Shown here piece after piece: positions 1 through 44,850 of a DNA stretch of 64,000 nt. Under the pieces are notes generated by a model. The model saw only the letters and a list, made by a program, of their open reading frames with translations, had not been told where the DNA came from and did no database searches. Every line of letters begins with the position of its first letter. Position 1 is the stretch's first letter. The position numbers were made by a program, and so were the translations under genes. This stretch comes from Pseudoalteromonas sp. R3 (GTDB lineage Bacteria; Pseudomonadota; Gammaproteobacteria; Enterobacterales; Alteromonadaceae), in assembly GCF_004014715.1 (NCBI RefSeq), contig NZ_CP034835.1:1178001-1242000 (forward strand). The letters run 5' to 3'.

Positions 1-407
1 GAGAAATCGACAATGGGCAGAACCCGATATTTGTCCTGCGCTTTGAGCTCATCCATGCTCAGGATGACCTGATGTGCTTCGCCCTGGTCTTCGTCAAACC
101 GGCAGCGCAAAATGTCGTGATCTGCCAGGGTTTGCTCAACGGCCTGAGTAAAACTGTCCAGATCCAGCGGTTGTGTGCTCTGGTATAGCTGAGGAATGCT
201 GTATTCCGGGCTCTCTGGTTCGTAGCGAGACAAGAACCAGATCCTTTGTTGTTCATGCGAGAGTGGAAAACGTTGCTGCGCTGCTTTAGCCACGACGGGA
301 ATGTCGTTCGCCACCGCTTTGGCTGCTTTGTTTTTTTCCGCAAGTTGTTGCAGTAACTTAGCCCGTTTTTCGGGGCTAAGTGCACTGAGTTTCTGTTGAA
401 TATCCAT
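1..407 (-). CDS. NRPS, N-terminal fragment (condensation domain), runs off the window
   Basis: Only the first 135 residues are present; the gene reads leftwards and leaves at base 1. A Lys/Ala-rich helical leader (about residues 1-45) is followed by the opening of a condensation domain with the C1-type motif LSHEQQRIWFL at residues 49-59 and the later DHDILRCRF segment typical of these domains. The ATG at 405-407 has a GAGG just upstream and lies 12 bases after the stop of the preceding NRPS, so the two are very likely co-transcribed as the last visible members of the minus-strand operon. By family knowledge the domain would join the chain from the upstream carrier domain to the next amino acid. 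Its remaining modules, and any terminal thioesterase, lie outside the window. Confidence 0.9.
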   Translation of the reverse strand, partial: MDIQQKLSALSPEKRAKLLQQLAEKNKAAKAVANDIPVVAKAAQQRFPLSHEQQRIWFLSRYEPESPEYSIPQLYQSTQPLDLDSFTQAVEQTLADHDILRCRFDEDQGEAHQVILSMDELKAQDKYRVLPIVDF

Positions 408-419
408 AATGCCTCATTG

Positions 420-3400
420 TTATTCTTGTTCTAGTTCCATCAGTAATGCAGCTAAATCGGCGTCATCCACCTGACTTAACTGTACTTGCTCAATGTGACT
501 GCTGAGCTGGCTTACGCTCTGATAGGCCAGTACATCGGCAATCGTCAGGCTGCTCAGGCCAAATGCTTCGTTCAGTCCTGCGACCAGTTGCATGGCCAAA
601 ATAGAGTTGCCCCCGAGTTTAAAGAAGTTGTCACTGAGCCCGACTTTGTCCTGGCCGAGAATGTTCTGCCATAAGTCACAAATGGTTCGCTCTGTTTCAC
701 TTTGTGGTGCCTGGTAGGGCATTAACTGGGTGAGCTGATAGCGACCCAGTGCCTTTTTATCGACTTTACCGCTGGGCGTCAGTGGCAGAGTGTCCAGTGC
801 TATCAGATGAGTCGGCACCATAAAGTGAGGGAGCTGAGCTGATAAACCGGTGACCAGCTGCGTCTCTTCCAGTGCGCTCTGGGCGACATAGAACGCCGCC
901 AGCACAGGCTCGGTCTGGGTCTGGTTGATGACCACAGCACACTGACTGACACCGCTTTGCCGTTCAAGTACCGCTTCAATTTCCTGAAGCTCGATACGGT
1001 AGCCACGCAGCTTCACTTGATCATCCAGGCGCTGCAGGTAAGCCAGTTCACCATTGCCAAGCTGACGAACTAAATCTCCGGTCAGATAGGCATCGACAGG
1101 TTGGCCGTCAATATCCAGGGTAACGAACTTTTCGGCATTCAACTCAGGGCGGTCACGGTAACCCATGGCCACACCCTGGCCCGCGATAGCCAGTTGTCCC
1201 ATTGCACCAAAGCGTGCCAGCTGATTATGCTCATTCAGCACATACAACTGGGTATTGTGGATCGGGCAACCTATGGTCACGCGCTCACCGGGCAGGATCT
1301 GTTTGATGCTGGACCAGACGGTGGTTTCTGTCGGGCCGTACATGTTCCACAGTGCCTGATTATCCTGTACTAATTGTTGTGCCAGTGCATCGGGCAGAGC
1401 TTCACCACCAACCAGACAAGTGAGGTTAGATTTGCCTTGCCAGTTTGCGCTATACAGCAGACGCCAGGTGGCGGGCGTGCCCTGCATCAGGGTAATATCC
1501 TGCTGTGCAATCAGGGTACAAAGTTGTGCGCCATCTTTGCTTTGTACATCGTTCGCCAGTACCAAAGTGGCACCACAGTACAGTGGCAAGAAAAGCTCCA
1601 GCACAGAAATATCGAAGGAGTAGGGGGTAATGGCCAGCAGCTTGTCTGTGGCGGTGCAACCCGGTTTTTCAGCCATTGCGTACAAGAAGTTATTCATGTT
1701 GGCACGGCTGATATCAACCCCCTTGGGCAGACCCGTTGAACCCGAAGTGTAGATACAGTAGGCCTGATTTTCAGGGCGATACTCAGGTGTTGTTAATGCA
1801 CTGGTGCCCGCATCGAGCTGATTGATGTCAACAAGCTGGCAGTCTGCGCCAAGGCTAAAGCCGGACTCTGTGCTATCGCTGAGTACAAATCTGACCCCCG
1901 CATCCGTTGCAATAAAGCTCAGGCGTTCGCTGGGGTAGTCGGGGTCCAGTGGCAGATAGGCTGCACCACAATGAAAAATGGCAAGCAGGCTGATCAGTAA
2001 GTCTCCCTGGCGTGGCAGTGAGACCGCGATAAGGTCGCCCGGTTGTACGCCAAGCTGGTGGAGTTGCATGGCACGCGTTTCAACCGCCTGCTGCAGTGCT
2101 TCATAGCTCCATTGTGCTTCGCCACAGATAAGCGCCGTCTGCTGCGGGTGCTGCGCGGTGTGGTGCGCCAGCTGTGCCAGTAAGTCAGGGATCTGTGCAG
2201 GGGCAATGGTTGTTCCTTGCGGCAGATTTGCCAAAGTGTCTGACTGAGCTGTGCTTTCTAATGCCTCTACCGAGCCGTCAAGGCTGCTCGCCAGCTGCGT
2301 CATAATTGCAATATAGCGTGCACGCAGCAAAGCGATAGTATCGGCAGAGAATAACTCTTCGCTGTATTCCAGGTGCCCTTTTATCCCCGCAGGAGAGGCG
2401 ACCAGAGTTAAGGTCAGGTCAAATCTCGCGGTGTCATTGGGCGTATCCGGCAAAGACAATGTCAGCGTATCCGTGATGGGGTGTGACTGCTCTGCGCTGC
2501 TGCTTAAAAAGTTAAAGAATACCTGAAATAGCGGGTTGTAATTTAAAGCCCGGTCGACGTCCAGTAACTGGACTAACGATTGCAACGGCAGGCTCTGGTT
2601 GTCAAACCCAGACAAGATGCGTTCCTGCGTTTGTGTTAGCAGCTCAGTCAGAGTTTGCTCAGGCGTCAGTGTCATGCGAATTGGCAGGGAATTAACAAAT
2701 AATCCCACAACCTGATCCAGCTGATGGCCCGGGCGTCCGGAAACCGGAATGCCAATGGCGAAATCCTGCTGTCTCGATTGCTCTTGCAATAACAGTGCAA
2801 AGGCGCACAGAGACAAGGTATATAAAGAGACACCAGCGCGGCTTGCCTGCTGTTCCAGCTGCTGACTTTGCGTCGCTGGCAGCGTCAACTCAAGACGGCT
2901 TCCCCGGAAGCTGGGGCGGGCCGGACGAGGTGCATCGAGCGGCAAGTCCAGAGTATGAGGCATACCGTTTAACGCATCGAGCCAGTATTGCTGGCTGTGT
3001 GCTAAAAATGCCTGGCCTTGCTCTGTGTGCTGCCAGTGGGCGTAATCCAGTAATTGCACCGTCAGATGATCTGGCTGCCAGTGATTGCCCTGAAGCTGCT
3101 GATAATAACAGGCGGTCAGCTCTTTGATCAGCACATCCATCGAGGCGCCATCGCAGAGAATATGGTGGATCACTAACCCCAGCCAGTGACGGCCATCCTC
3201 TAGCTGATACAAGACCCAGCAGTAGGCTGGTTTGGTCAAATCGAACTTTTGCTTGAGCAGAGTATGAAAGTGCGCTTTTGCCTCTGCCTCATCCAGTTGC
3301 AGCGTTTGTAAAGGCAGCTCAACGGTGTTGAGCACTTGCTGGCGGGCTTCACCCTGATGCTCAACAAAGCAGGTGCGCAGTGCTTCATGTCTGGTGGTCA

Positions 3401-6400
3401 GGGCTTGCAGTGTGCTGATGAGCACGGTTTTATCCAGCGGGCCATCAAGCTGCACTAACAGCGGCATATTGTACAGTCCGGCTTCACCTGCATATGCATC
3501 CAGCACATACATCTGTTGCTGGCTGTGAGTCAGGGTGCCTGCCTCTGTGCGAGAAACCGGTTGCAGTGCACTCATGCGCTGCTCTGTTTGCTGCTGCTCC
3601 AGCAATTGCGCTTGCTGTGCGATACTTGGCGCTGCGAAAAACTGCTTCAGCGTGAGCTCTTTATCTAACTGCTGCGTGATCTGACTGAGCACTTTAAGTG
3701 CTGCCAGTGAGTGACCCCCTTGCAGGAAAAAACTGGTTTCACAACAGAGCCCGGTCTTATTCAGTACCGTCTGCCAGATGGTCAGCAACGTCGCCTCAAG
3801 CTGCGAGTTAGGCGCAGCACGCTGAGTCAGTGCGTTAACCACATCGGCTTTAGGCAGGGCTTTTTTATCAATTTTCCCCCGCGCGGTCAGCGGCAGCGCA
3901 TCAAGTTGAATAATGTGCTCAGGGAGCATATAAGCGGGTAAAGTCTGAGCCAGCACATAGTTGAGCTTGTCTTGCTGTAACTGTGCCTGACTGACGACAT
4001 ACGCTACCAGGGTTGGCTGAGGTGTTTGCTGCACAACGCAAATACTGGCGGTCACGCCTGTGATGTTGTTTAGCTGACGGCTGATTTCTTCCAGCTCAAT
4101 CCGGTAGCCCCGGAATTTCACTTGCTCGTCAATGCGGCCTTTGAAATAGAGCAGCCCCTGTTGATCGTAATATGCCTGGTCGCCCGTTGCATACAAACGT
4201 TGCTGTAGCTGAGGGTGGACAGCAAATTTTTCGGCGCTTACCTCTGGCAGGTTTTGATAACCTTGCGCCAGGTTGTCACCACCAATATAGAGCTGGCCAA
4301 GCACATAAGGTGCAACCGCATGACCTTGCTGGTCCAGCACATAGACCTGGCTGTGTGGTAGCGCAGAGCCAATTGGTACTGGCGAGCGGTGAATATCAAG
4401 CTGATTGACTTCGTGGGCACTACAGCTGATAGTGGCTTCACTCGGCCCGTAGGCATTGATAAAACGTTGGGTTTTGGGGTTGGCCAGCGCGAACCAGTTG
4501 GCAACGGTGCGATTTTGCAGTTGTTCAGTGCCGGTTACGACCAGTTTGATCTCACTTGGCAGCGGCTGATCTGCATGACGCAGTTGCTCCATCCAGGCAT
4601 GCAAATAGCCCGTCGGCAGGCTCAGGTGATTGAGTGCGTAGCGTGCAATCAGATCACCCAAATCGGCAAAAGAGGGGGTGTCTTTTGCCGGACGCAGCAC
4701 GACCTGACCACCGTGATACAGGATCGGGAAGAACTCTTCCAGTGCCAGATCAAATGACAACACCGAAAATTGCAGCGCTTTGGTATGCGCCCCCAGTTGA
4801 TAGAGCCCGGCAACCGCCTGACAGTGGTTGTTGAGCGCTTGTCTGGTTACGCGCACCCCTTTGGGCGTGCCTGTAGAGCCTGAGGTATATACCAGATAAC
4901 CCAGTTCAGGATCTGTGCTCGCCTGTACATCAAGCACGGTCAGTGCAAGCTGGTTTGTGTCATCTGTTAACATCACGCTTGCCTGAGCATCCCGGGCAAT
5001 AAACTCGCGCCGGGACTGAGGTAAAGCAGGGTCAATGACAACGAAGGCACAACGGGCAAACTGGGCCGCCAGCATGGCTATCACGCAATGGTAGCTTTGC
5101 GCACAGCTAATGGCCACGGTCTGTCCGGTCTGTGCAACAGAGCGCAGCTCACTGCTGACGCTGCGCACCACCTGAAGTAACTGAGTATAAGTAAGGCTGG
5201 TATCCTGATCCGGTTGTGCGCCGGGCGCAACCAGTGCAATGGACTCTCCCTGATGCTCAGATAACGCGATGAGTCGCTCACTGAAGCAGGGCACCAGATG
5301 TGATGGCTGAGGCTGATTCAGCAGCGCCGACTGTTGTGCATAATCGAAGCTGCTAAGCTCACCAATAGTGCACTCAGAGCGGGTCAGCATCACATTGATG
5401 ATAGTGGCGAGCTGGTGCTGCCACTGACGCACTTGCTCTTTCGTAAACAGCGCCGTGCGAAATTCAAAGTAGCCGCTAAATGTGTCACTGGCTTGCTGAA
5501 TTTCCAGCGTAACATCCAGTTTGCTGTAGTGTCTTTGTACCGGGTAGGGCTGCCAAATTGGCGCTTTCTCAGAGTTTGATGGCGTGCCGCTGCCGAGGTT
5601 ATTAAATGAAAACATCACCTGGAACAGCGGATTCGTGCCACTGTCACGATCTGCCCCGAGCAAATCGACCAGTCGCTCAACCGTGACCTGGTTACATTGC
5701 AGATCCTGATAGAAATGCTGCTGCAACCGGGAAATAAAAGCGCTAACCGGTGTGTCTGGGCTCACGCCTGCCGGGATCAGTAAGGTGTTAGCAAAGTTGC
5801 CCACCATAGCGCGTTGCTGCTGATTGGTACGTGCCAGCTCAGGCATGCCCACAATAAAATTATGCTGACCGGTCAGCTTATGTAGTAACAACTGATAAGC
5901 GGCAAGAAAAAACACACATGGCGTGATAGCAAGTTGCTGGCAGCAAGTAGTGATTTGCTTGCTGAGCGCGTTATCAAAGCTGAAGTTGACATAACTGCCT
6001 TGCTGTAAATCCTGCTCCGGTGATGCCGGGTTGAGCGCCAGAGACAAAGTATGCTCAGTGTCTGCAAGGCGGCTCAGCCAGTATTGTTCCATTGCACTGC
6101 GGTCGCCGCTTTGGGTGGCGAGTAACTGAGTCAGCGTGTAGGCGGGCTCTGTCGGTACACTTATCGCACCCGAGTACAGAGCCATAATGGCGCGTTCTAC
6201 CATCACCACGGAATAACCGTCCAGCGCAATATGGTGGAAACACAAGGTCAGCACGTATTCGTCTGCGGCCTCAGTGTTATGGAATAACCGGAACCGACAT
6301 GGGTACTGACGACTGAGCTCAAACGGCACTTTTGCCTCGGCTTCAATCGCGTGTTTCATTTCGCTTGCTGAGTTCACCGGCACCTGCTCAAACGGGACCT

Positions 6401-6701
6401 TTTCCAGAGGCTGACTGAACTGTCTGGGCTCGTCTTTGACCATTACAAATTTACTGGTCAGGGCTGGGTGTTGTTGCATGACTGCGGCAATTGCTTGTTG
6501 CAATGCCGCAGTATCTGGTCTGCCAGCAAAGCGGTAGGCACGAAAAATATTATTCATGCCGCTGGTGGCATCCAGCTGATGACTGAACCAGAAGCGTTGC
6601 TGCTTATCGCTCAGTCCCAGCAGGGCCAGACCCGCCTTTTGCTGTTGCAGTTGTTTCAGCCGCGCGAGTTTTTCTGCGCGGCTCAGAGTTGAGGCTGTCA
6701 T
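420..6701 (-). CDS. Nonribosomal peptide synthetase, two modules (C-A-T-C-A-T)
   Basis: A 2093-residue synthetase. Approximate layout on the DNA, right to left: C 6620-5290 (HHIALDG), A 5290-3830 (YTSGSTGTPKG), T 3800-3620 (GGHSL), C 3560-2250 (HHILCDG), A 2200-750 (YTSGSTGLPKG), T 700-520 (GGNSI), then an acidic tail ending ALLMELEQE. Aligned by eye with the GrsA pocket positions, the first A domain reads D-L-E-S-V-G-A-I-S (Glu at 239, perhaps a basic substrate, weak) and the second D-I-L-Q-L-G-M-V-W, a Gly-type code. I chose the ATG at 6701 because it follows the stop of the upstream NRPS by one base, has GAGGAAA before it, and earlier in-frame starts would overlap that gene in another frame. 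The second T domain carries GGNS rather than GGHS. No epimerase or thioesterase domain is present. Confidence 0.95.
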   Translation of the reverse strand: MTASTLSRAEKLARLKQLQQQKAGLALLGLSDKQQRFWFSHQLDATSGMNNIFRAYRFAGRPDTAALQQAIAAVMQQHPALTSKFVMVKDEPRQFSQPLEKVPFEQVPVNSASEMKHAIEAEAKVPFELSRQYPCRFRLFHNTEAADEYVLTLCFHHIALDGYSVVMVERAIMALYSGAISVPTEPAYTLTQLLATQSGDRSAMEQYWLSRLADTEHTLSLALNPASPEQDLQQGSYVNFSFDNALSKQITTCCQQLAITPCVFFLAAYQLLLHKLTGQHNFIVGMPELARTNQQQRAMVGNFANTLLIPAGVSPDTPVSAFISRLQQHFYQDLQCNQVTVERLVDLLGADRDSGTNPLFQVMFSFNNLGSGTPSNSEKAPIWQPYPVQRHYSKLDVTLEIQQASDTFSGYFEFRTALFTKEQVRQWQHQLATIINVMLTRSECTIGELSSFDYAQQSALLNQPQPSHLVPCFSERLIALSEHQGESIALVAPGAQPDQDTSLTYTQLLQVVRSVSSELRSVAQTGQTVAISCAQSYHCVIAMLAAQFARCAFVVIDPALPQSRREFIARDAQASVMLTDDTNQLALTVLDVQASTDPELGYLVYTSGSTGTPKGVRVTRQALNNHCQAVAGLYQLGAHTKALQFSVLSFDLALEEFFPILYHGGQVVLRPAKDTPSFADLGDLIARYALNHLSLPTGYLHAWMEQLRHADQPLPSEIKLVVTGTEQLQNRTVANWFALANPKTQRFINAYGPSEATISCSAHEVNQLDIHRSPVPIGSALPHSQVYVLDQQGHAVAPYVLGQLYIGGDNLAQGYQNLPEVSAEKFAVHPQLQQRLYATGDQAYYDQQGLLYFKGRIDEQVKFRGYRIELEEISRQLNNITGVTASICVVQQTPQPTLVAYVVSQAQLQQDKLNYVLAQTLPAYMLPEHIIQLDALPLTARGKIDKKALPKADVVNALTQRAAPNSQLEATLLTIWQTVLNKTGLCCETSFFLQGGHSLAALKVLSQITQQLDKELTLKQFFAAPSIAQQAQLLEQQQTEQRMSALQPVSRTEAGTLTHSQQQMYVLDAYAGEAGLYNMPLLVQLDGPLDKTVLISTLQALTTRHEALRTCFVEHQGEARQQVLNTVELPLQTLQLDEAEAKAHFHTLLKQKFDLTKPAYCWVLYQLEDGRHWLGLVIHHILCDGASMDVLIKELTACYYQQLQGNHWQPDHLTVQLLDYAHWQHTEQGQAFLAHSQQYWLDALNGMPHTLDLPLDAPRPARPSFRGSRLELTLPATQSQQLEQQASRAGVSLYTLSLCAFALLLQEQSRQQDFAIGIPVSGRPGHQLDQVVGLFVNSLPIRMTLTPEQTLTELLTQTQERILSGFDNQSLPLQSLVQLLDVDRALNYNPLFQVFFNFLSSSAEQSHPITDTLTLSLPDTPNDTARFDLTLTLVASPAGIKGHLEYSEELFSADTIALLRARYIAIMTQLASSLDGSVEALESTAQSDTLANLPQGTTIAPAQIPDLLAQLAHHTAQHPQQTALICGEAQWSYEALQQAVETRAMQLHQLGVQPGDLIAVSLPRQGDLLISLLAIFHCGAAYLPLDPDYPSERLSFIATDAGVRFVLSDSTESGFSLGADCQLVDINQLDAGTSALTTPEYRPENQAYCIYTSGSTGLPKGVDISRANMNNFLYAMAEKPGCTATDKLLAITPYSFDISVLELFLPLYCGATLVLANDVQSKDGAQLCTLIAQQDITLMQGTPATWRLLYSANWQGKSNLTCLVGGEALPDALAQQLVQDNQALWNMYGPTETTVWSSIKQILPGERVTIGCPIHNTQLYVLNEHNQLARFGAMGQLAIAGQGVAMGYRDRPELNAEKFVTLDIDGQPVDAYLTGDLVRQLGNGELAYLQRLDDQVKLRGYRIELQEIEAVLERQSGVSQCAVVINQTQTEPVLAAFYVAQSALEETQLVTGLSAQLPHFMVPTHLIALDTLPLTPSGKVDKKALGRYQLTQLMPYQAPQSETERTICDLWQNILGQDKVGLSDNFFKLGGNSILAMQLVAGLNEAFGLSSLTIADVLAYQSVSQLSSHIEQVQLSQVDDADLAALLMELEQE

Positions 6702-6702
6702 C

Positions 6703-9700
6703 CTAGCTTTCCTCGCCATCCATCGCAGCCAGCAAGGCATCCAATTCCTGATCGGACAGTTGCTCGTCGATTTCAGCCTGTTCCGGTGCATGGGCAGGAT
6801 CCGCTGCCTGAGGTGCACTCTGCTGCTCGTCCAGTTTGCGGACCAGCTGAGCGACCGTAGGGGCTGTGAACAGGTCAACCAGAGTGAGATGTGCCTGTAG
6901 CTGCTCTTCGATGTTGGCAATCACTTTGACTGCGACCAGCGAGTGGCCACCCAGCATAAAGAAGTTGTCGTTACAACCAACCAGCTCGAGTCCCAGGGCT
7001 TGTGCAAAAATAGCGCACAGTGTCTGCTCTCGTTCAGTCTGTGGTGCCACAAACTGCGCCAGCTTACTGCGTACATCAATCGGGTTCGCCTCAATAATGG
7101 CATTGCGATCCAGTTTACCATTGCTGGTTAACGGGAACTGCTCCGCTTTAACGAAGAAATCCGGGATCTGGAAGCCCATCAGCGCAGACTGACAGTGATC
7201 CAGCAATGCGTCGTCCAGGTTCTTGTCTGCCTGATAATACGCGGCCAGATGTTGATTATCTTCACCAGTTACGGCCACACATACGGCTTGTACGTCTGGA
7301 TGCTGACCTATCACCTCTTCAATTTCATTGAGTTCAACCCTGAAACCACGCACCTTGACCTGGTTGTCGTTACGGCCGATAAACTCAAGCTGTCCCTGGG
7401 CATTTTCGCGCACCATATCGCCACTGCGATACAAACGAACGGTGCGTTCTATCCCATGCAGTTTAAAGGTATGAGTGACAAAGCGTTGTGCGTTAAGCTC
7501 GTTATCCAGATATCCCTGAGACAGTCCCAGTCCGGCCAGATACAATTCACCAATGCCACCTTGTGGTACACACTGGCCTTGCGCATCCAGCACAAACCCT
7601 TCGCTTCCTTTAATGGCGGTACCAATGGGCACTGAGCGTGACAGCGCAGTGGCTTCGAGGACGTCGGCTGTGAGTTGCTGACAGTATGAGAAAGTGGTGT
7701 TTTCTGTCGGTCCATAGCCATTGATCAGGATGCAGTGCGGATTGTGCTCCACAAACTTTTGCACTTTGTCCCGAGACAGCACGTCACCACCAGCCAGCAA
7801 ATAACGCAGCGATGTAGGCAGGGCAGTTTGTTGTGCTTCAGCCAACTGATGGAACAGGCCTGCGGTTAACCACATATGGCTGATGTTGTGGGTGTTCAGG
7901 TAATCCTGATACTGGGCCAGAGACAGACGCTTCTGTGCTGGCACAACCAAAGTACCGCCATTGAGCAGTGGGGCATAGATTTCAAGTGTGGAAGCATCAA
8001 AGTACTGAGAGGAGTGCTGCAGCCATACGTCTTCACTGCCCAGGGCAATGAAATCAGGCTGTTCTACCAGGCGCAGTATCCCCGCTTGCGGAATGCGAAC
8101 CCCTTTGGGTTTACCCGTAGAGCCAGAGGTGTACATGATGTATGCCGTCGAGTCCTGAGTACCTAAATCCAGCAATGGTGCATCAGACATATCGGTAATT
8201 TCGCTGACATGTACCAGGTTGAAGCGCTCAGCCAGCGTCAGTGCCTGCTGATCGGTCACAATCACCGGGCTGGCATTTAGCTGTGCCAGGTCATCAAGCA
8301 TTGTTTGGGTACGGATTTCACCGCTGTCCAGGTCGATAGGCATATAACTCGCACCCAGACGAGCCGCCGCCAGCATGGCAGCATAGAGTTCAAAGCCGGG
8401 TTTAAGTACCAGGCCCAGAGTATCACCCGCAGTAACATGTGCCTGCAGTGCTGCGGCTATGCAGGCAGAACGCTGTTGCAATGCCAGATAGCTGTACTCG
8501 GTTGAGTCTGCATCAATAACAGCTGTGTTATTCGGGTATTGCGCAACCTGATGGTCGAACAGGGCTGCAACCGAAGGTGACAGCTGTGATGCGAGTTCAT
8601 CTTCGTTCATCAGCAGCTGACTGGCAGAGCTGGCATTGATGGCCGTCAGCTGGTCAATAGGCTGATCCGGGTTTTGGGTCAGGTTAGCCAGCAGATGCAT
8701 GAAGTTAGCCACCATTTCCTGCATGGTTTCTTTGGCAAACAGATCGGTACTGTATTCCCAGGTCATAACTGCTGCCGCGCGTCGTGAGGTGGTTTGCCCG
8801 ACGCGTTGCTCTGCGTGTGGCGCGACTATGATGTTCAGGTCCAGCTTGGCCGATTTGTTGGTGTTAACCAGGCCATTGACCTGTAAGCCACCAAAGTCTG
8901 GCTCAGGGACTTCCGCATCATGGAAACTGAACATAGTCTGGAACAAGGGGTTGGCCTGTCCCATACGCTCAGGGCTGAGTTTCTGAACCAGTTGTTCAAA
9001 TGGCATGTCCTGATAAGCATAGGCATCTAGACAGGTCTTACGCACGCGCTGCAGCAACTCAAGGAAGCTTGGGTTACCTTCCAGGCTGGTACGTAGCACG
9101 ATGCTGTTAACCATCATACCCATGATAGGGTGCAGCTCGGGTGCGGTACGCGACGCCGTACCGGCACCGATATTAATGTCAGTCTGGCCACTATATTTGT
9201 GCAGTAACACATAGTACGCGGCGATCATGGTCATATATAAGGTGAAGCCATTTTCGCGCGCAAACGTACGCAGTGACTCATACAGTTCAAAGTCCAGGTT
9301 GAACATGAGTGAGTCACCTCTAAACGACGGCTCCAGCGGGCGTGGATAGTCATAAGGCAACTCCAGTGCCGGCGGTAAATCTGCCAGCTTGTCCAGCCAG
9401 TATTGCTCCATTTCTTCGTAGTAGGCACCCGACATCACTTCACGTTGCCACAAACAGAAGTCGGCATAAGTGAATTTAAGTGGCGCCATTGAATGGGCTT
9501 TACCTGCCAGTTTGGCCTCGTAGATGGCGTGCAGTTCTTTGGTGAAAATACCCACAGACCAGCCATCGTGGATCAGGTGGTGCTCAACCTGCAGCAGGCA
9601 GTGAGAATCTTCAGCCAGTTTGATTAGTTTCCAGCGGATCAGTGGCAGCTGAGTAATGTCGAATGGCTTCTGAGTCAATTTAGGAAGTAACTCATCCAAT

Positions 9701-12700
9701 TCTGCTCGTTGTTGTTCTTCGCTCAGATGGCTCATGTCCAGCGGGGTCAGGTCGACTTTGAACGGACTTTCGATGCGCTGATAAGGCACACCATCGTCAT
9801 CGTGGAAGGTACTGAACCACAGCGCATGACGGGCAACGATCTCTTCCAGCGTTTCTTCCAGGTAAGTGATGTTCAATGGACCGTCGAGGTAGAAGGTCAT
9901 CTGGAAGTTATAGGCCGTATTGGTTTTCTGTAATTGCTGCAGGAACCATACGCGTTCCTGCTGGAACGATAAGGGATAGCGGTCCAGCTCCGGACGATGT
10001 GTCAGGCTGGGAAGCAGTTGCTGGCTGCTCTCGCTGTTACGCGCCTTTTGGGCGATCAGCTGAGCCTGTGCTGCCAGTGTTGGATAATCAAAGATCTCGC
10101 TGAAATTCAGTTTTACGTGGAATACATCTTTAATTTTTGCCAGCAGTTTGATGGTCAGAATTGAGTGACCTCCCAAACGGAAGAAGTGGCTGTCTTCGCT
10201 CAGTGTCTCCGGAGAGAGTAGCTGCTGCCAGATCACCGCCAGTGAATTGAGGTAGTGATCTTCGAAATCGATTGTGACTGCTTTGCGCTCCAGTGCAGGC
10301 AGTTTTTTCCGGTCATATTTGCCGGTAATGGTTTTGGGGATATGTGGCAACTGCATCCAGTGACTGGGCACCATATAATCAGGCAGTCGCTCTGTCAGTG
10401 CATCACGTAGCGCCGCAGAGTCACACTCCACCGCTGCGGTGTAGTAAGCCGCCAGTTCCTGGGCACCCTGGTCGTTATCGACAACAACCAGGACCACTTC
10501 TGAAATGTCCTCCAGCTGCGCCAAGGCATGCTCAATTTCACCCAGCTCAACGCGATAGCCGCGGATCTTGACCTGGTGGTCTTTACGGCCAGCATAGTAG
10601 AGTACACCCTGCTTGATATAACCCAGGTCGCCACTGAGGTAGCAGCGGCCAAGTTGCGGGTGCGTAACAAACGCGGCTTCGGTCAGCTCACTCTGGTTCA
10701 GATATTCCCGTGCCAGACCGGCGCCCGATATGGCAATCTCACCTAAAAACCCTTCCGGCAGACAGTGCAGAGACTGGCTCAGGATATGACAGGCGGCGTT
10801 GTCGATGGCACGACCGATAGGCAAACGGGCGAGGGTCAGATGTGACTTATCCAGCTTGATTCGAGTGGTGACCACGGTCGCTTCTGTCGGGCCGTAGGTG
10901 TTGAATAAGTCAATGTTCAGCTGATGTTGCTGGCAGAAGGTGTGCCAGGCGCTGAAGCTTTGCTGGGTCAGCTCTTCACCGCCGACAATTACCGTCTTCA
11001 CTGATGCAGGCAGTGGCTGCTCAAGGGTGTTACTCCAGGCAATAAAGAATGCGGTTGGGAAGTTAAGGATACTCAGGTTATGGGCAGTAATAAAGTCTAT
11101 AAATGCCTGTGGATCAGCCATGATGGCATCGTTTCGTAACACCAGTTTGGCACCCGCAAATAAGGTGGGGTAGATCTCTTCAACGGCGGTATCAAAGCTC
11201 ACTGAGGCAAACTGCAAGGCGCTGCTTTGAGGTGTAATTTCGTAGCACTGCATTGCTGACAAAGTGTGGTTTAGCAATGCGCTGCGAGGCACACTCACCC
11301 CTTTCGGGTTACCGGTAGAGCCAGAGGTATAAATGACGTAGGCTTCTGCCGTGTCTTCAACGTCTGCTGCCAGCAGTGTATCGGCATGTATGGATGTGAC
11401 TTGTTCTGCACTCAGACAAGGTAGCTGACTATCGACGGCGACATTGGTGATCAACAGGGCCGGTTTCGCATCATCACAAATAAATGCCTGTCGGCTTGCA
11501 GGCATTTTAGGGTCAAGCGGAATATAGCTGGCGCCAATGCGCAGGGTTGCCAGTGTTGCGACGATAAAAGGTAATCCTCTGTCGAGTGCAATGGCGACAC
11601 GCTGACCTGCTGTAATACCTTGTGCCTGCAATTGTTGAGCGCAGCCATTGATAAGTGTATTCAGTTCGCGATATGAGACTGACTGTTCTGCATCCACGAT
11701 TGCAATGGATTCACCCGGTTCACCCAGCTTGGCCAAATGTGCGTGCAGATGGTTGTTTTCCCATTGAGTGCTAAGATCCGCCGCCGGCATAGCTGTCAGC
11801 ACATCCTGACTGTAAGGGTCCAACTGGGTCAGCGACTGCTGAGCTTGTTCAACACAGTTCAGCAGGAAAGCCTTGTAAAAGTCCAGCAACGCCTGAATAT
11901 GCGCAGCGCTGTAATGCTTGGACTGATAACTGGCGTGCACACTGAGTGCGCCCGATGCCATGACATACAGCGTCAGTGGATAGTGGCTTTGTTCATAGCC
12001 CACCACTTGCTGCATTGGAGCTTGCTGCGCATCTGATTGTTCATCACTGACCAGACGCTTAGGGAAGTTTTGGAAAATAAACAAAGTAGAAAACAAATGC
12101 TCAGTGATCGGCATTTTGACCGCTTGTTTAATTTGCTCCAAAGAGACATGGGCATGATCCCATGATGCCACTAGAGTGCTCTGGAATTGTTTCAGCCAGC
12201 TGGTGAAGTCGCTATTGTGCTGTGCATCAATACGGATTGGCAGGGCATTACTGAAAAAGCCTGCAATGCTTTCCATGTTAGGCACCAGGTGCGGGCGACC
12301 TGCGACAACCGAACCAATGACTGCGTCTTCACGTCTGCTGACCTGAGCTTCAAACAAGCCAAATGCGCCCAGCATCAGGGCATTTAATGTCACCCCCTGG
12401 CGCTGACAAAAATCGTTGAGCGTTGAAAATTCTTGCTCGCTGAAACTGAGCTTTGCCTGAGAGTTTTGTTGACTGACCTGCTCGGCCGCAAACCCCTGCA
12501 ATTTGAGCGGAGCACTTGATTGCGGCTCTCCCAGATGAGTATACCAGTGGCCTAAAGACTGTTTGGTGTCCTGCGCCAGCAGCCATTTAACGTAGTCTTT
12601 GTACTGACCTCCCTGAGGAAGCGCCACAGCTGAACCCTGAAGCAGCTGGGATACAGCCAGTTCGAGCTGATTGGTGATCAGCGCCATGGACCATCCATCC

Positions 12701-13143: not shown

Positions 13144-13184
13144 GGGTATTCCTTGTTTTCTTATATTTTTTATATTTTTAAAAA

Positions 13185-21057: not shown

Positions 21058-21125
21058 CAAACGTCCCTGTTCACTCTGCCCGGGAGGCGCTGCTGACACT
21101 TGGCAAAGGGGAAGAGTGTGAGCTG

Positions 21126-43800: not shown

Positions 43801-44849
43801 CGGCACTGTTCGAACCCTGGTGCGAGCAGCTCACAGGCACTTGTGGCTTTAGTCACTTGTTGATCGGGGGAGATGTTTTCCCGACTCAGTCGGTGCGACG
43901 TTTATTTGAGCTAGACCCTGAGGTTGAGGTTTACAATGTTTACGGTCCGACCGAGAACAGCGTTTTGTCGAGTTATTATCCGGTTCCGCGCACATTGCAG
44001 CTGAACGATGATATTCCTATCGGCCTGTCTCTGGGTGGCACCCAGTATACGATCCGCAATGCACAAGGGCAGCGTCTGCCATCTGGATTTGTGGGTGAGT
44101 TGTGCTGGCATGGCCCGAGTGTGGGTATTGGCTATCAGAATAACGCTGAAGCCACTGAAGCGGCCTTTATCACAGATCCGCAGTCGCAACAGCGATACTA
44201 TCGCAGTGGTGATATGGCACGGATTGGTATGGATGGCATGTGTTACTTCAAGGGACGTAAAGATCATCAGGTTAAACTGCGGGGCTTCCGCATCGAGTTG
44301 CAGGAGATTGAACAACAGTTTGAATTGCATCCTGCGGTGCGCCAGGCCGCGGTCTTGGTCAATAAAACGGACTTTGCGGTCCCTACCTTGTGTGCTTATG
44401 TATGCCTGGCCCAGGGCGCCGACGAGACGCAACTTGGCGATATCTGGCAACAGGTTCGTACAGGGTTACCCGGATATATGGTGCCAGGGCATTATGCCTT
44501 AGTGACAGAAATGCCGGTGAATCTCAATGGTAAGCGCGACGATAAAGCCCTGCAGGCGCTGACCCTCAGCGAGTGTACTGTGGATAACTATGTCGCACCG
44601 GAAACAGATACGGAGCAACAACTGGCCGAACTATGGTCGCAGATGCTTCGCCTGGAGCAGATCAGTATCCGCAGTAACTTCTTCGAACTGGGCGGTCACT
44701 CTTTGTTAGCGATGCAGCTGATTTCGAAGATCAATGATGCCTTTGAGTTAGAGCTGAATGTGGCTGATTTGTTTGAGCTGGGCGACATTGCGTCAATGGC
44801 CGAAGAAATCGACATAATGCTGGATGAGCAAGAAAGTGGGTGGTTATAA
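21138..44849 (+). CDS. Giant NRPS, 3' portion: A-T-(C-A-T)x7
   Basis: An open frame of 7903 residues, with eight A, eight T and seven C domains and no E, MT, Cy, KS or TE domain. The T-domain serine motifs recur about every 1045 residues (near nucleotides 22730, 25860, 28968, 32130, 35295, 38435, 41583 and 44697). The GTG at 21138 is only the first usable start codon; it has no ribosome binding site and lies inside an A domain, so translation very probably begins in the preceding ORF (see the frame change at 21009-21057). Joined, the protein would have nine modules and about 9,180 codons. The C-terminus after the last T domain is an acidic tail (EEIDIMLDEQESGWL) like those of the minus-strand proteins, which suggests docking to another synthetase. 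The thioesterase gene starts one base after the stop. Module entries follow. Confidence 0.93.
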   Translation: MQRLNRLSEQCDGRPALIDDNRSLSYRELAQQARALAGYLQSNGVEQGDAVAVMMPRCVEYIVAVYACHLCGAAFVPVDTHFPAERVNNIASQAGIHWLLSVSEVAKAPELACEFIDVRVAIAQGLRCQPVVNRPQDTAYMLFTSGSTGTPKGVVVTQRNLSYFLTTNDTDTFSAHDPSNVRWGWRLAFVFDGSMLGLGAVAAGATVVLADEATCQDPERYAEFCRQHQLTHCCVTPSFCELFIEQWPDVAQMPNLGMGGESISPSLWARLNEIAAQTGLSIINYYGPTEITVHATCCDISTSALPSIGKVASNAQIYLVDDCGTLLPRGAIGEIWVAGSGVTAGYLGQPTLTAEKFIENPYGPGLVYKTGDLGRWNTQGQLTFQGRADTQLKLRGYRIEPGEVESVIAQHEAVQQAFVTAHRQQLVAYVAVGGAAEDAHVELQRALQVNLNAQLPAYMVPTHFVFIPQLPLTLNGKVNKKALPLPQASGADEYVAPSNGTEEKLCEMWSEVLTLDASQISVQSNFFTLGGHSLLATKLLSMIKKVFGYPLTMTQLFANPNIAALAALLPAPQAADSAVRSEIQLAPNADVVLSFAQQQMWLACEMSDNQAGYLLPLHLALHGSVDAARLDTALVSLLTRHTVLRTSIERTGQGIVARVNPAPDRVLSQVDLREYNTVQQQEAIAKVTEQVATTLTPASDLMLHAVLFTLGTEQYELRLWCHHIAADGWSVELLGNELSALYIDPTAQHDVTLQYSDFARWQREHFAEQDVLPSLREYWQTQLTDLPSLHSLPIDGAPEGDLHTAHTCRVTLDEKQNQQLKAFSGAQDVTSFVTLQSAFALLLAQFGAEQDVVMGTPMANRRHEETQSLIGYFVNSVVLRSAVDWTDSFSAMLVRQRAMILDAYEHQEMPFEQLVELLQPQRVHGRHPLFQIMFNYLSSDERLTSFALPGVRVSTLPPEQSAAKFDLSLNIIERDSGALSIEVDYATELFSEAMINSLLSQFVHIISVCCAAPSEPLNTLDLLAPEQVPVVREQLGHGPEQPVQPVLMPQRLFELAAARPAHIAVHDAHARLSYAELDHQARQYAAGLQLLGVNPGDALALLLPKDAQLVALLQAIHLCGGVYIPLDESYPTERIDNICQQANVRFIISRASQKKLYQGERPVHQLENLSADHNRYQSVDISAQDTAYILFTSGSTGEPKGVQVSHGNLAHFIGVMHDTVLKGRDIRDVCWGWRAPLVFDASVLGLATLALGGQLWVCDRETSRDPLKYAAFVQQQGINLTFATPSFAQLMLDAWPQDKPTPDLMLGGEALEQPLWSQLVALREQGHRAYNVYGPTETTVYVTCTEVTGDTTHLGQTVASTQLYVLDAYQRLQPFGAKGELYIAGSGVSLGYLNRDQQTRDSFLNNPFGAGKLYRSGDLVRWDEARRLTYMGRADDQIKLRGLRIELGEITRLMSNSGLVKQACVQVVEQHLIAYFTAPETATGDLDRQLTQYLSEKLPDYMVPSQCILLDEMPLTVNGKVDKRRLPAANIVEQTYLGPVNETEQQLVELWAQVLGRKADEISTTANFFALGGHSLLAAKLITLINGAFGGDWSLASVFKYASIQAQAGMIAQHTQITHSVEITRSHCDEPALSMAQRQMWLACEMSDDQAGYYIPLYLRFDASPDPERLDQALCALLEHNPVLRTSVVQQGNELVAQLSAQPDSVLTFDDLSECEAEQRDTALANSFAQLHEGLTPQSPVMLRAKLITLSAQEYVLALCIHHIAADGWSMGLILEQLDHFYRTGHADESELPLYHDYARWQQAQFDDPVHMDKLAKYWQQQLADLPLHHELALDKPRPVDASYRAQTLSRRIPVEQVSAIREFAQQQQTTPFVVLQSAFSWVLSLFSGEQDIVMGTPMANRQQASCEHMIGYFVNSVVLRAQVSPQLSFNDLVKAQNSTFLSAYEHQAFPFETLVETLNPERVAHLHPLFQIMFSYLTAEHSAAISLGELGCETLEEPNSFAKFDLTLNATEQQNGDILLEIDFSTDIFEAATAQALLTYLSDGLSNLLAHSSTPFESLPALVDDTQWRAIEALGKGAPCQYEADLRTMLEARVAQNPEQVVIEEGELTLTYSQLHTRATQLAGYLQSLGVQPGENLGLLLPRSADALVAIYATQLCGATFVPLALDYPRARVEKIAEQAQLRLLLVQHLDAGQAFEGIAEIVSLQTIPSGCDYRVPERYAQMAYLLFTSGSTGEPKGVCISQQNLAHLLTSWTQRTFATVDMATVRWGWRAPLVFDASMFGLAIVAFGGCLVIADHETGRDPYAFMRFCQAHSINYSFATPSFAEQMLECHEQPMPSLMLGGEALNRKLWCQLSEYSEQHGRVFFNAYGPTETTVEVTQTEVTGTHPHLGGPIANTQLYVLDAQQRCVPIGAKGELYIAGAGVAAGYLNNPAQSEKAFINNPFGSGLLYRSGDLVRWDHDGNLEFFGRIDQQVKLRGFRIELGEIETVLSRSEAVTQVILTVQGSHLVAYFVAAGTLSEQDITTRLRALAQQALPDYMQPSYYVQIEQVPYTVSGKINLRALPAISVEQAHYEAPATYLESQLQTLWAEILALDVGQVSVEANFFALGGHSLAASKLVARVKQTQPCTLNVSDVFKMPTIRALARALTSQQQLPQDLPLVKAPRPERLPLSDAQQRLWLVDQMEGRSAQYNMPFAFDYYGALDLTTLTQALTALVERHEVLRTCLRRDEQGPYQYIQEVSAFEPQVLDASEYSTEEFAGLLEQLAVTPFDLEQDVLLRAHVFIRGDDHYTLLLNFHHVAMDGSGMEIFIAELDALYSHRGDSERLNPLALQYADYALWEHQGRHPENLAAQRAYWHQQLAQLPPVHELPLDKPRPQEMTHSGQVVFNQLSEQCSETLKAYCERQGVSTFMAMHGLLSALLSKFSGSRDIVIGTPVANREQLETQRMLGFFANTLVLRMDTDLSMSFAQLLAQSRDTALAAFDNQSVSFETLVADLQEARHNRYNPLFQILLVVQSQHNSAWLLDGVELREHPVNFDQSKFDLTLSVVEQAGQIRLDWEYNSDLFHKATIESLAQAFVALCEQALATPDAQLLSLPLNAEDACDAADVAHLPQSVADVLRLSAQTQPGALALESSEVQLTYGEFVAQSSQLARLLAQHGVRQHQVVALTYARTPASYLAIAALLQLGAAYLPLDPKLPEQRLRYILQQSGVEHVIDTRGDASLAELIDTLELNCLALTWPALQSQLKGLDDSLYRSEEPIQGDDAAYVIYTSGTTGEPKGVVQTHRTLCHLAVAQQSTHGLTGAKRTLQFTPLTFDVSVQELITSWFTLSPLVLINEEEKDNLAQLPQLLSARKIERLFCPPAVLQILAEEVLGNDYDAVPDEIIVAGEALYISEAIAALFTRYPSKLWNHYGPTETHVACAEFVDDFSQPGFAFIGLPVGQCGLHVLDPYGQPVPRGAIGELHVSGAQVALGYLGRDELTAERFYTHASGQPCYNTGDRVRFNGNGKLEYLGRSDDQVKIRGFRVELSEIDLALQQCEGVTQARCFTFTDSQGQQQLAAAVVCESGEANETLQSTLVQTLGTQLPAYMVPERYAFVASLPLTRNGKLDKARVLEQLQSSVTMNEVIVAASTPTETFLVTVWAELLKLHEAQISIDSNFFKLGGHSLLATRLLIAIEKAFSLQLPLKVIFSHSTINKLAALIDDSQATEQHLKLTAATEEGQWCALSFAQERLWFMQQLNPDATSYHMPAAYVFKGELDVAAMEQALHWLVARQASLRTQFRVFADEGEQQVVRQRSLSPAQLSFTLTQCTLSDTETEAHFNAFNARPFDLQAGEVIRAELCKVAEQHHILMICMHHIATDGGSFAIFEQELFSAYNARRAHTPLEVAELDLQYRDFAAWQRAPENLAALEHSEQYWQTQLQGLPTVHSIPLDKPRDSTQSFKGGFHHHQLDGGLSAQIDALSANEQASSFMLLHSVFAALLARWSNETDIVVGTPVSNRNDAALQNVIGLFLNSVVLRLDLSDSPSLTNLLQQAKTHHLSAHEHANLPFERLVEVLNPERNLQHAPLFQVMINFDGHDQPELALDGLDVSGLALGEFDNKYDLTLYLSRREQGYELTWAYDARLFKASTISMIAAEFEHLLALGCNNPEQSLLSHAWSDNAVLPQPLALPSQTDTILTQWQQVVAMCADKPALISGEHRLTYQQLDAQATQVANFLSTLGVEQGDRVAVCMARALPRIVAIMAVIKLGAIYVPVSTELPQQRCEFMIDEVGCKWVLSNAGSEVLDWQVEAQVCALDDKESASAVAAQPTTPCYQVSLTPNDGAHIIFTSGSTGNPKGVLGTHGATLNRVNWMAQAYPYQDDEQACHITSMAFIRAVWELFTPLLQGVTLHLIDRELVKQVPQLLQALSEQGITRIVTAPSLLNIANEYMAQTGFRLPALNYWFVSGEPLATALARQVLPTLGDTQLVNLYGSTEVMSDVTHYVVTDTSLTDTLYAPIGAAIANTQVVLLDANHNPVPQGAVGEIVITGHGLATGYFNRPEQTAGAFIETPIGRAYATGDLGRVDEAGRLHCLGRKDYQIKIRGYRIEIGEIEAQLARHSDVQNAIVIYVPEQQSLQAYLLTQVPACQQSALLQAIKAQLAQTLPDYMLPDAFMCVSSFAYRPNGKVDRSRLPAFDVAVKDEYVAPATPTEQRLQAVWQRLLDKESISTEANFFHLGGHSLLATRLVTAIIAEFNVELAVKSVFSANTIAKQALLIDSSEQLSVGAQLSVQARPAEGAPLSYAQQRMWFINQLEGNSGNYNIPMVYAIRGEVDVSLMELAFAQLLTRHEVLRSQFVNHDGEARQIAHDDSHFTLDYRDLSALPEVQKQQQLALATTQAATLAIELSCDPMLHVTLLKEQECCFKLLLTVHHIVADGWSMGLITNEFIRLYEALVEGREAVLPTLSVQYADFAMWQRSWLQGAQLEQQVGFWQQALAGIPAVHELPTDQPRPAKQSYRGAWHESQLSHAQLAQLQSLAQQTDSTLYMVLQSMFSVLLHKLSHQDDIVLGTPVANRRREELVDLVGFFVNTLVMRTQFEAQDGFMDVLARSKAYMLEAQTHQDVPFEALVESLAPERSLAYSPLFQIMFVLHNNQAVELDNSAFEIDIERSKAALAKFDLTLTAMENESGLGLSWEYNTDLFSAQRIARFDAALHRLIDLLLDMPQQRIADISLATPAQSQLTTAAVEVTPQSQVIPLFTAAAEQYAQHSALSFQGAHLTYQQLAERVEHLSGALFEQGVEPGSEVIVMVPRGINAVLAMLAVWRLGAVYMPVDSQWPQARIDTICHDNEVTFALISNNTPSAQHPDVARVLEIEALLTSTVAASAPHWQGDPDDAAYVIHTSGSTGKPKGVVVPHRTLANLLAFQRRDNSVLSAPAKTLQFASLNFDVSVQEICTALTTGAELVVVDQHTRTDMAALLDVIATQQVARIFVPFAVLQVMCSEALASGVSLDALCEIVTAGEQLQISADIIRFFTRYSNCTLINHYGPSETHVVTEYVLRGEPAQWPQLPPIGQLLPGNEARLLDKHLQPVLPGCVGELFISGVNVALGYLNNPTLTGERFVEMAEGKRWYRTGDLVQLDEQGQLRYVGRSDTQVKLRGFRIELGEIETLLNQYPGVSEALVTVHQQSRLIAYYVADKPCDEALKAALQGALPDYMCPELYYHLERLPLTDNGKVDRRALPQPDAQQQVQYEPPQTPTEQTLAQIWQQLLSVEQVGKGDNFFTLGGHSLLAMRLVTQVKQSFAIEFGVKQVFETPTLNGMALAIDAAAHSELGQISAVSNPDACYPLSYAQSRLWFIDQLEQGSSNYNVPANYRLRGALKVTALQAAFAALSDRHHILRTVYEQGTEGPVQRITQRQAQLTLRDLSGLSDPQQALDAALRELSATCFNLAADLPVQAVLYKVATQEYVLALVIHHIAVDGWSFAVIERELFAHYEQLCADQVPDAEPLAIQYKDFAQWQHQDAQQQALSRSEQYWKEALNGAPKLHSLPLDKPRPQVQSFNGARFITELDSDVSAMLNTLALDQGCSLFMVLESLFAALLARYSGTDDIMIGTPVAGRERPEIEPLVGFFVNTVVLRNRLALSQGFVENLRSTSTMILDAFEHQAMPFERLVEVLQPERSLSHSPLFQILFALQNNEFDELQVADLAVEPMGYDRDTSKFDLKLSTIEQPEGGVVLAWEYNLDLFSEQSIQRMARSFATLARAVVNQPHTPLAQLDMIDPQAHTELAAWNDTRRQFTEQVPFHDWFSAQVKATPNAIAIRQGAAQIDYQQLDALVNQWAHLLIAQGVKPGDVVALSLDKSITLIACMLAVLKAGGAYLPVDPEYPQSRIDYLVADSGAVCVITSHSDSEKFPALTTRCLVDCPQWQAQLSACATVAPDVAVSSLMPAYVIYTSGSTGQPKGVMISHANIANYLAQALDTYFVSDLEGSVLMSSVSFDGTIPNIYLPLLRGKTVHIADNDNLYLSAAQILTDSDVPLYIKVTPTQIEVLLSQLSAPVAQPHTLMMGGEEFTVQTYERIRALLPEARIYNHYGPTETTIGCTFNFVAEPPQGAAIALGKPIHNTRLYVLDEQQALAPVGAVGELYIAGEGVTLGYLGAAAEQTGSRYLPEYGNPGGRMYRTGDQVRWLNDGTILYFGRNDGQVKLNGYRIETAEIESCLQRLDGVEQSCVVIRQDAQQQAILVAYYCASQTLDSQTLQTQLSALLPEYMVPKAWMQLDALPLNMSGKVDRKALPQPSWQSDVAYRSPETPLQLQLAKIWQSLLGQTQVGLDDSFFALGGHSLLAIQLVSRIRDELTLEVPVRTIFEAPKLAQFCERLSAMSATSGMTEIQVLADNSPSVVSYAQQRLLFIAKSNPESGLYNMPYPYDISGPLDLAMFRTALDLIVTRQHSLRTRFVLGETLLQYCTDHTQVALELAELEGDAHSIADWVNETSTRAFDLQGDSLFRVHVATIGAERHMVNFVFHHVICDGWSIGRFWQELSYLYTALVRGEQPQLPELKVQYRDYAAWQRGWFSGEVLEQQSDYWQQQLQDIPAVHSLPLDFARPKTQSHRGHFIGTELDQQTLAGLKALTQRHGATLFMTLQTAFAALLSSWSNETDIVMGTVVANRTQRDVEALIGFFVNTLVLRNRFDDNPSFEQALRDAKQMHLDAQSHQDMPFELLVEQLQPERSTAYHPLFQVLFVLQNNQSADYGLDQLVVEDYQRSAESDVKFDLSLTAHESDTGLYFTWGYCRDLFAQQSIEIAAEAFNRLLKGIVDAPQLALSQHTLSDEPIAEAICHSSQGPQSIAAAIRAFALEDAAHTAVFYAQEQLSYGALIEQADALMQRLAAQGVSHGDKVAVMFDRSLELVVAQLAIMQLGAAYVPLDPNAPMDRLSYIVDNAQCRMLLKASHFEVELPCPIYTAAQLPEAHGTAVSVVENHPDDLAYIIYTSGTTGRPKGVKISQGSIFSMLTQLEFCPFNRDTRVLQLLSLAFDAAVFDIWGPLVHGGAVVFYPGRHVEIDKLEQVVKQSGANTALITPALFEPWCEQLTGTCGFSHLLIGGDVFPTQSVRRLFELDPEVEVYNVYGPTENSVLSSYYPVPRTLQLNDDIPIGLSLGGTQYTIRNAQGQRLPSGFVGELCWHGPSVGIGYQNNAEATEAAFITDPQSQQRYYRSGDMARIGMDGMCYFKGRKDHQVKLRGFRIELQEIEQQFELHPAVRQAAVLVNKTDFAVPTLCAYVCLAQGADETQLGDIWQQVRTGLPGYMVPGHYALVTEMPVNLNGKRDDKALQALTLSECTVDNYVAPETDTEQQLAELWSQMLRLEQISIRSNFFELGGHSLLAMQLISKINDAFELELNVADLFELGDIASMAEEIDIMLDEQESGWL
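22908..25960 (+). other. NRPS module 3 (C-A-T), aliphatic-type pocket
   Basis: C domain opens with FAQQQMWLACEMSDNQAGY and has HHIAADG. A domain has FTSGSTGEPKG and the WGWR signature; pocket D-A-L-F-M-G-V-V-Y, which shares several positions with Ile-type codes (weak call). T domain GGHSL near 25860. Confidence 0.8.
26025..29075 (+). other. NRPS module 4 (C-A-T), unassigned pocket
   Basis: The C domain (MAQRQMWLACEMSDDQAGY, HHIAADG) is close to that of module 3. A domain has FTSGSTGEPKG and WGWR before A4; pocket D-A-F-F-M-G-A-V-E, with an unusual Glu at 331. T domain GGHSL near 28968. Confidence 0.8.
29140..32250 (+). other. NRPS module 5 (C-A-T), Pro-type
   Basis: C domain HHVAMDG. A domain YTSGTTGEPKG and YGPTETH; pocket D-V-Q-F-I-A-H-V-A, close to the established Pro code. 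T domain GGHSL near 32130. Confidence 0.85.
32310..35400 (+). other. NRPS module 6 (C-A-T), beta-amino-acid-type A domain
   Basis: C domain HHIATDG. A domain FTSGSTGNPKG. Core A4 reads AFIRAVWELF, so the Asp at position 235 that normally holds the alpha-amino group is Ile (codon 34260-34262), and 236 is Arg. With YWFVSGEP and YGSTEVMSDV the pocket is I-R-W-V-F-S-L-S-D, resembling the beta-alanine code V-D-W-V-I-S-L-A-D as I remember it. T domain GGHSL near 35295. Confidence 0.8.
35475..38550 (+). other. NRPS module 7 (C-A-T), Pro-type
   Basis: C domain HHIVADG. A domain HTSGSTGKPKG (His in place of the usual Tyr/Phe) and YGPSETH; pocket D-V-Q-F-V-A-H-V-V, Pro-type. T domain GGHSL near 38435. 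Confidence 0.85.
38605..41700 (+). other. NRPS module 8 (C-A-T), Asp-like pocket
   Basis: C domain HHIAVDG. A domain YTSGSTGQPKG, A4 FDGTIPNI; pocket D-G-P-K-M-G-H-I-G, sharing Lys278, His322, Ile330 and Gly331 with Asp codes but with Gly-Pro at 236/239. Core A8 reads LNGYRIETAEIE, where LRG is usual. T domain GGHSL near 41583. Confidence 0.8.
41760..44800 (+). other. NRPS module 9 (C-A-T), aliphatic-type pocket
   Basis: C domain HHVICDG. A domain YTSGTTGRPKG, YGPTEN; pocket D-A-F-L-L-G-V-V-L, most like Val/Ile/Leu codes. T domain GGHSL near 44697 is the last domain of the polypeptide. Confidence 0.8.
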
Positions 44850-44850
44850 G

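Follow-up and report, generated by a model that had tools for sequence, protein, structure and literature searches.

Two divergent operons of Pseudoalteromonas sp. R3 probably encode one 15-module NRPS assembly line that ends in a pseudo-epimerase domain

Introduction

How does a nonribosomal peptide synthetase (NRPS) encoded in two divergent operons work as one assembly line, and how is its product released if no thioesterase (TE) stands at the end of the line? This question is raised by a 64,000-nucleotide stretch of the Pseudoalteromonas sp. R3 genome, here referred to as the window. The genome comprises two contigs with a total of 5.82 Mb, and the window spans positions 1178001-1242000 on the larger one (4.50 Mb). 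In this window, the plus-strand operon encodes a giant protein, here named P, and the minus-strand operon encodes four proteins, N1 to N4, the last of which ends in a domain of the epimerization (E) type that we refer to as E*. NRPS genes as such are common in R3, as the condensation (C) domain family has 63 matches in a six-frame Pfam search of the genome. The locus is also present in Pseudoalteromonas rubra S2599, P. rubra S2676 and Pseudoalteromonas sp. XMcav2-N, with identities of 93, 86 and 90%, respectively, over the start of P. Here, we suggest that the two operons probably form a single 15-module NRPS assembly line and that this line ends in E*, which most likely serves termination.

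Results

Domains were called by six-frame Pfam searches of the R3 genome. These searches identified 15 NRPS modules with 15 adenylation (A) domains in the two divergent operons, in agreement with the initial annotation of the window, which had proposed at least 14. The plus strand has eight C, nine A and nine carrier (T) domains, giving P the architecture A-T-(C-A-T)x8. Thus, the nine plus-strand modules and their overall architecture stand as initially annotated, while the complete C domain assigned to module 1 does not: eight modules are C-A-T and the first is A-T with a C-like remnant only. The minus strand has six C, six A and six T domains together with one extra C-type domain, and these form six C-A-T modules in N1-N4, all four of which begin with a C domain as previously read. 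Five of these modules lie wholly inside the window, and the sixth, which had been seen in part, is completed beyond base 1 on the left (L031). All 15 T domains have the carrier Ser motif, and all 14 C domains have the H...D motif with its second His; three of these C domains lack the Gly after the motif Asp and one lacks the first His. The two operons thus show what defines a modular NRPS, namely C-A-T modules in order, with the carrier Ser and condensation His motifs, and they also have an initiation module with no C domain before it, i.e. the A-T start of P. What they lack is a terminal release domain, whether TE, reductase (R) or terminal C, as N4 ends in the E-type domain. The TE family PF00975 matches at ten places in the R3 genome, none of which is at the end of N4.

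We favor the protein order P, N1, N2, N3, N4, which is also the simplest reading of the initial annotation (plus modules 1-9 followed by the minus-strand proteins in gene order) and is supported by synteny, by the start of P in a second genus and by a docking domain in N1. P is divided in R3 over two open reading frames (ORFs) on the plus strand. The first (P1; 17110..21057, with the real start probably near 17314) contains the C-like remnant and then A-T-C, that is, the loading module 1 and the C domain of module 2, and the second (P2; 21138..44849; 7903 aa) contains modules 2-9 as A-T-(C-A-T)x7 and ends, as initially described, in a T domain and a short tail (...ESGWL) without a TE. The remnant, recognized by eye, consists of about 200 residues upstream of the first A domain (17314-17980) that resemble part of a C domain; Pfam returned no match in it up to an E-value of 1. 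The C-like N-terminal part of P is present in four of 108 genomes of the genus, and these same four genomes have E* at 96-100% identity. In a sample of 395 genomes of the family, four genomes of another, Rheinheimera-like genus (g18) have E* at 65% identity, and the remaining matches are either from the genus of R3 or have E-values of 2e-62 and weaker. N4 of the g18 genome G124 is 100% identical over 1546 residues to protein P0009 and 80% identical to P0012 of Rheinheimera sp. WS51. In g18, P begins with an A domain at residue 5 (G124) or 6 (G169), leaving no room for the remnant. Because P of g18 has no C domain before its first A domain, it cannot accept a chain and must initiate the line.

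The divergent layout, with N1-N4 on one strand and the giant P on the other, is present in 8/8 genomes found via N4 (four Pseudoalteromonas, four g18). The control region between the operons, which the initial annotation had already regarded as shared, extends in R3 over 16521..17313; measured to the probable start of P, it has 793, 793, 793 and 795 bases in the four Pseudoalteromonas strains and aligns along its length in 4/4. N1 (13185..16520, minus strand; 1111 aa), which carries module 10 as C-A(Gly code)-T, begins with the acceptor docking domain initially ascribed to it: TubC_N (PF18563) scores 29.2 bits against a cut-off of 26. According to PMC13324335, a TubC_N-type β-hairpin docking domain engages a motif behind the carrier protein of another subunit. 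A candidate for such a motif is ESGWL, the last five residues of P, which are identical in 7/7 complete P proteins from the two genera (in G169 the contig ends inside P). Within Pseudoalteromonas, the four tails hardly differ over their whole length, so that the informative comparison is the one between the genera, whose tails differ outside these five residues. The remaining minus-strand proteins are N2 (6703..13143; 2146 aa), with modules 11-12 as (C-A-T)x2; N3 (420..6920; the real start is probably at ~6701, overlapping the end of N2, and the database form has 2093 aa), with modules 13-14 as (C-A-T)x2; and N4 (1547 aa), with module 15 as C-A(Gly code)-T-E*, of which the first 407 bases of the window (1..407) encode the beginning and which continues to about window position -4236 (L031:13764). 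The start of N2 resembles a COM acceptor by eye, and N1, N2 and N3 end in short acidic tails.

The initial annotation had suggested that a terminal TE might be found by extending the sequence leftwards past base 1. There is no TE to the left of base 1; instead the line ends in E*, and the minus-strand operon has neither a TE nor an initiation module of its own. E* belongs to the E domains by fold, as seen in structural comparison, and by clade, as seen in trees and with TIGR01720, as would an active epimerase. However, the catalytic second His of HHxxxDG is replaced by Phe in N4 and by Phe or Tyr across E* proteins, and the catalytic Glu of EGHGRE by Leu in N4 and by Leu or Val across E*. E* forms a monophyletic clade of its own with at least 85 proteins, some from Acidobacteriota, that keeps ~450 residues and 17 clade-specific conserved positions. 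The A domain is of the glycine type in 85/85 of these proteins, and epimerization at glycine has no effect. With dN/dS of 0.029-0.086, E* is under purifying selection. In the protein searches, candidates were 0.55-1.75 times the query length and the best 120 of 1505 matches were examined, so that larger E* proteins are possible. The six-frame genome searches, which had no length limit, returned no other match near the range of E* (best 1e-61 in the genus and 2e-62 in the family versus 0 to 1e-202 for E*): 31 further genomes of the genus passed 1e-40, all with at most 33% identity, and in the class and phylum samples the only match was R3 itself, at 1e-65. Taken together, the position of E*, its conservation and the absence of a TE suggest that E* most likely serves chain termination, either as a catalyst or as a platform.

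R3 has a second NRPS line at C1:919339-935575 (L058) that also ends in a T domain and an E-type domain (HHLAIDMMGW), the catalytic Glu of which is retained; a free TE match lies at the opposite end of that line.

The division of P, which the initial annotation did not mention, concerns the stretch 21009..21057, where the end of P1 and an open frame of 7946 aa leading into P2 share bases and the reading frame changes. P is a single ORF of 9246, 9246 and 9211 aa in 3/3 Pseudoalteromonas relatives (G053, G054 and G094). Because several other R3 NRPS domains are also split over two frames or have an internal stop (C1:267148, C1:858206-859500, C1:878653-878787 and C2:4167501-4168816), indel errors in the assembly are likely; alternatively, the break in P may be a real mutation, and several NRPS genes of R3 may be broken.

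Specificity codes were read from alignments at the PheA positions, and the residues were named from code tables rather than by a predictor. In P, the codes are DTEDVGAIT (module 1, Lys-like), DGLCGGYVH (module 2), DALFMGVVY and DAFFMGAVE (modules 3 and 4, both hydrophobic), DVQFIAHVA (module 5, Pro), IRWVFSLSD (module 6, without Asp235), DVQFVAHVV (module 7, Pro), DGPKMGHIG (module 8, Asp-like) and DAFLLGVVL (module 9). In N1-N4, they are DILQLGMVW (module 10, Gly), DTENIGTVV (module 11, Lys-like), DALWLGGTF (module 12, Val), DLESVGAIS (module 13, basic), DILQLGMVW (module 14, Gly) and DILQLGLVW (module 15, Gly). Module 6, with its code extended to IRWVFSLSDK, we take to be perhaps specific for beta-alanine, a code assignment that a literature search did not return. 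A special kinship of the module 6 A domain to LgrA was considered and dropped, as the score sums two LgrA A domains and a module 9 query gives the same top match. From these codes, the product is perhaps the 15-residue peptide Lys-x-x-x-Pro-x-Pro-Asp-x-Gly-Lys-Val-basic-Gly-Gly. None of the modules has an E domain that retains both catalytic residues, and the first C domain of N2, which follows a module predicted to be specific for Gly, is the only one of the line to fall in the DCL/dual clade of the C-domain tree; a linear, all-L peptide is therefore likely. A DCL/dual C domain behind a predicted Gly module and E* on a Gly module also suggest that Gly modules replaced former D-residue modules.

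P of g18 has ten modules (G124, G316 and G408). From module 5 on, the codes of these genomes differ from those of R3 at one of nine positions at most, with the exception of module 9, which differs at three, and the best matches of the A domains are positional for modules 1 and 5-15 and not for modules 2-4. On this pattern, the family seems to vary the start of the peptide, while the ten or eleven C-terminal residues stay nearly constant.

Directly behind P lies a gene for a free-standing protein of 258 aa (44824..45600, plus strand) that the initial annotation did not mention and that overlaps the end of P. It matches PF00975 with 109.4 bits, has the motif GHSNG and has RifR as its best solved relative (E 9.5e-33), identifying it as a type II TE of the RifR/SrfAD kind. 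The next gene (45634..46395, plus strand) encodes a 253-aa, probably secreted SGNH-like protein, recognized by eye from a signal-like start and a GNSHT motif and without a Pfam match. Both genes adjoin P in the seven genomes other than G169; the SGNH-like gene accompanies the cluster in both genera, with its g18 homologue on the other strand. Past N4 are genes for an MFS protein, an HlyD adaptor, an ABC ATPase and a MacB-type permease, and these four transporter genes were read in 6/6 genomes in which that side is covered (R3, G053, G054, G094, G124 and G169). The single MbtH match of the R3 genome is at C2:4199856-4200005, distant from the cluster. The window contains no tRNA gene and no Rfam match at gathering scores.

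Discussion

Based on this analysis, we suggest the following model. P (modules 1-9) would start the chain with an amino acid loaded on its A-T module and thus with a free amino end; no acyl-loading domain was seen. The peptidyl-T at the end of P would pass its chain to N1 (module 10), probably through contact of the TubC_N-type docking domain of N1 with the motif at the C-terminus of P, and N2, N3 and N4 would then act in gene order up to module 15. There, E* could itself release the peptide, using residues of its own in a new chemistry; alternatively, E* could bind the terminal carrier as a platform to which a release enzyme acting in trans, for example the free TE, is recruited. The MFS protein, the HlyD adaptor, the ABC ATPase and the MacB-type permease would probably export the product. 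Of this model, the order of the domains, the synteny, the codes, the lost catalytic residues and the selection on E* are seen in the sequence, and the order of docking, the substrates, the part of E* in release and the export are inferred. Going further, we tentatively propose, as a possibility that falls short of probable, that E* represents an undescribed class of NRPS termination domain: an ex-epimerase that is fixed to the terminal Gly module from marine Gammaproteobacteria to Acidobacteriota, replaces the TE and releases the peptidyl-glycine itself.

Several observations weigh against the model of one line terminated by E*. The role of E* is deduced from its position and conservation, the docking order from sequence features, and the product is a prediction. 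Within N4, dN/dS is slightly higher for E* than for the C and A domains. A Gly-type code also precedes one of the 36 canonical E domains compared, and in linear gramicidin synthetase an inactive, non-terminal E domain is reportedly found on the Gly module of LgrA. The short tail after E* was rejected as proof of terminality, because canonical E domains have short tails, too (0-13 residues in 23 of 48, by the same measure as for E*). The usual role of a type II TE is editing and not release. The cluster context of E* proteins was seen in Pseudoalteromonas and g18 only. Finally, R3 itself may not make the product, because P is frame-broken in its assembly.

Three other explanations have to be weighed. 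E* could be a mere vestige of an epimerase that is kept by whole inheritance of N4-type proteins, with release either by the free TE or spontaneous. The loss of both catalytic residues and the inactive E domain on Gly that is reported for LgrA fit this explanation. However, if the domain had no use, one would expect it to decay or vanish, while in this monophyletic family, which has at least 85 members, ~450 residues with 17 family-specific conserved positions are retained at a dN/dS of 0.029-0.086, so that we regard a vestige as rather unlikely.

The other two explanations concern the order of the proteins. The operons could encode two separate lines that share a control region, with P making a nonapeptide released by the free TE and N1-N4 a hexapeptide on an acyl or aminoacyl donor from elsewhere. 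The free TE directly behind P would suit such an arrangement, as would the presence of N4-like proteins in phyla without N1 or N3 relatives among the 120 matches listed per search, from which the terminal protein appears to be a movable part. Against it, an N operon without P was seen in none of the eight genomes, N1 has an acceptor docking domain, in a tree with a poorly resolved backbone the C domain of N1 lies apart from the two C domains that start lines in this genome, and the free TE most resembles the type II enzyme RifR; two lines are therefore improbable. Even less credible, and in our view nearly negligible, is the reverse order, in which the minus-strand proteins would act first and P, with the free TE, last. 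The TE gene does overlap the end of P, and in R3 the two parts of P separate at a C|A boundary, hinting that N4 could feed P1. However, this boundary is the frame break, which is absent from 3/3 relatives, the end domain of N4 is of the E type and not a C domain, and P of g18 starts with an A domain and so has no C domain to accept a chain. The N-to-P order was dropped because N4 ends in an E-type domain and because P1 and P2 are one ORF in the relatives.

With a single line from P to N4 as the preferred reading, the NRPS line is of a known kind, and the terminal domain E*, more so than the layout, is its unusual part. No earlier description of the cluster or of E* was found in Creative Commons (CC)-licensed literature, including the accessible parts of PMC12819058, PMC4359443, PMC8949500, PMC13122642, PMC13324335 and PMC9113145. 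A line for 15 to 16 residues that is kept in two genera with a near-constant C-terminal part and a variable start is a target for compound discovery. Moreover, at least 85 Gly-module proteins that end in a conserved dead epimerase make it testable how bacterial NRPS lines without a TE release their product. If E* is labelled as E in annotation, the glycine is predicted to be epimerized and the terminus is overlooked.

Tyrocidine and linear gramicidin, the latter a peptide of 15 residues, are reportedly made by multi-protein NRPS lines with A-T initiation. The line described here resembles them in its A-T loading module, its C-A-T elongation modules and its several proteins joined by docking elements. 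It differs from them in that no intact E domain, no formylation domain and no terminal TE or reductase were seen in it, in its terminal E* and in its divergent operons. Similarly, E* is like the E domains of TycA, GrsA, TycB3, BacC and PvdL in sequence clade, in TIGR01720 and in fold, and is unlike them in the changes of His to Phe/Tyr and Glu to Leu/Val, in its association with a Gly-code module (85/85) and in its position at the end of a one-module protein.

Two other kinds of NRPS domain are close to E* in some respects. The X domain of glycopeptide synthetases is a recruitment platform, and X domains are closest to LCL-type C domains (PMC8949500). E* shares with the X domain (4tx2) membership in the C superfamily and a changed active-site motif, but falls in the E clade and not among LCL-type C domains, in trees from which the X domain itself is absent. 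In addition, the E* model has a TM-score of 0.69 to 4tx2 versus 0.80-0.87 to E domains, and the E* profile an E-value of 4.5e-10 to 4tx2 versus 2e-103 to E domains. X domains recruit P450 enzymes, and there was no P450 among the cluster genes scanned. R* domains, as described in PMC8949500, are terminal, have lost the usual catalytic residue and perform other, non-reductive chemistry. E* is like them in being terminal with a former catalytic residue gone and unlike them in that R* domains have a reductase-family fold. Thus, R* domains are a precedent for E* as a putative release catalyst, and the X domain, an inactive C-type domain that recruits partners, is a precedent for E* as a putative platform.
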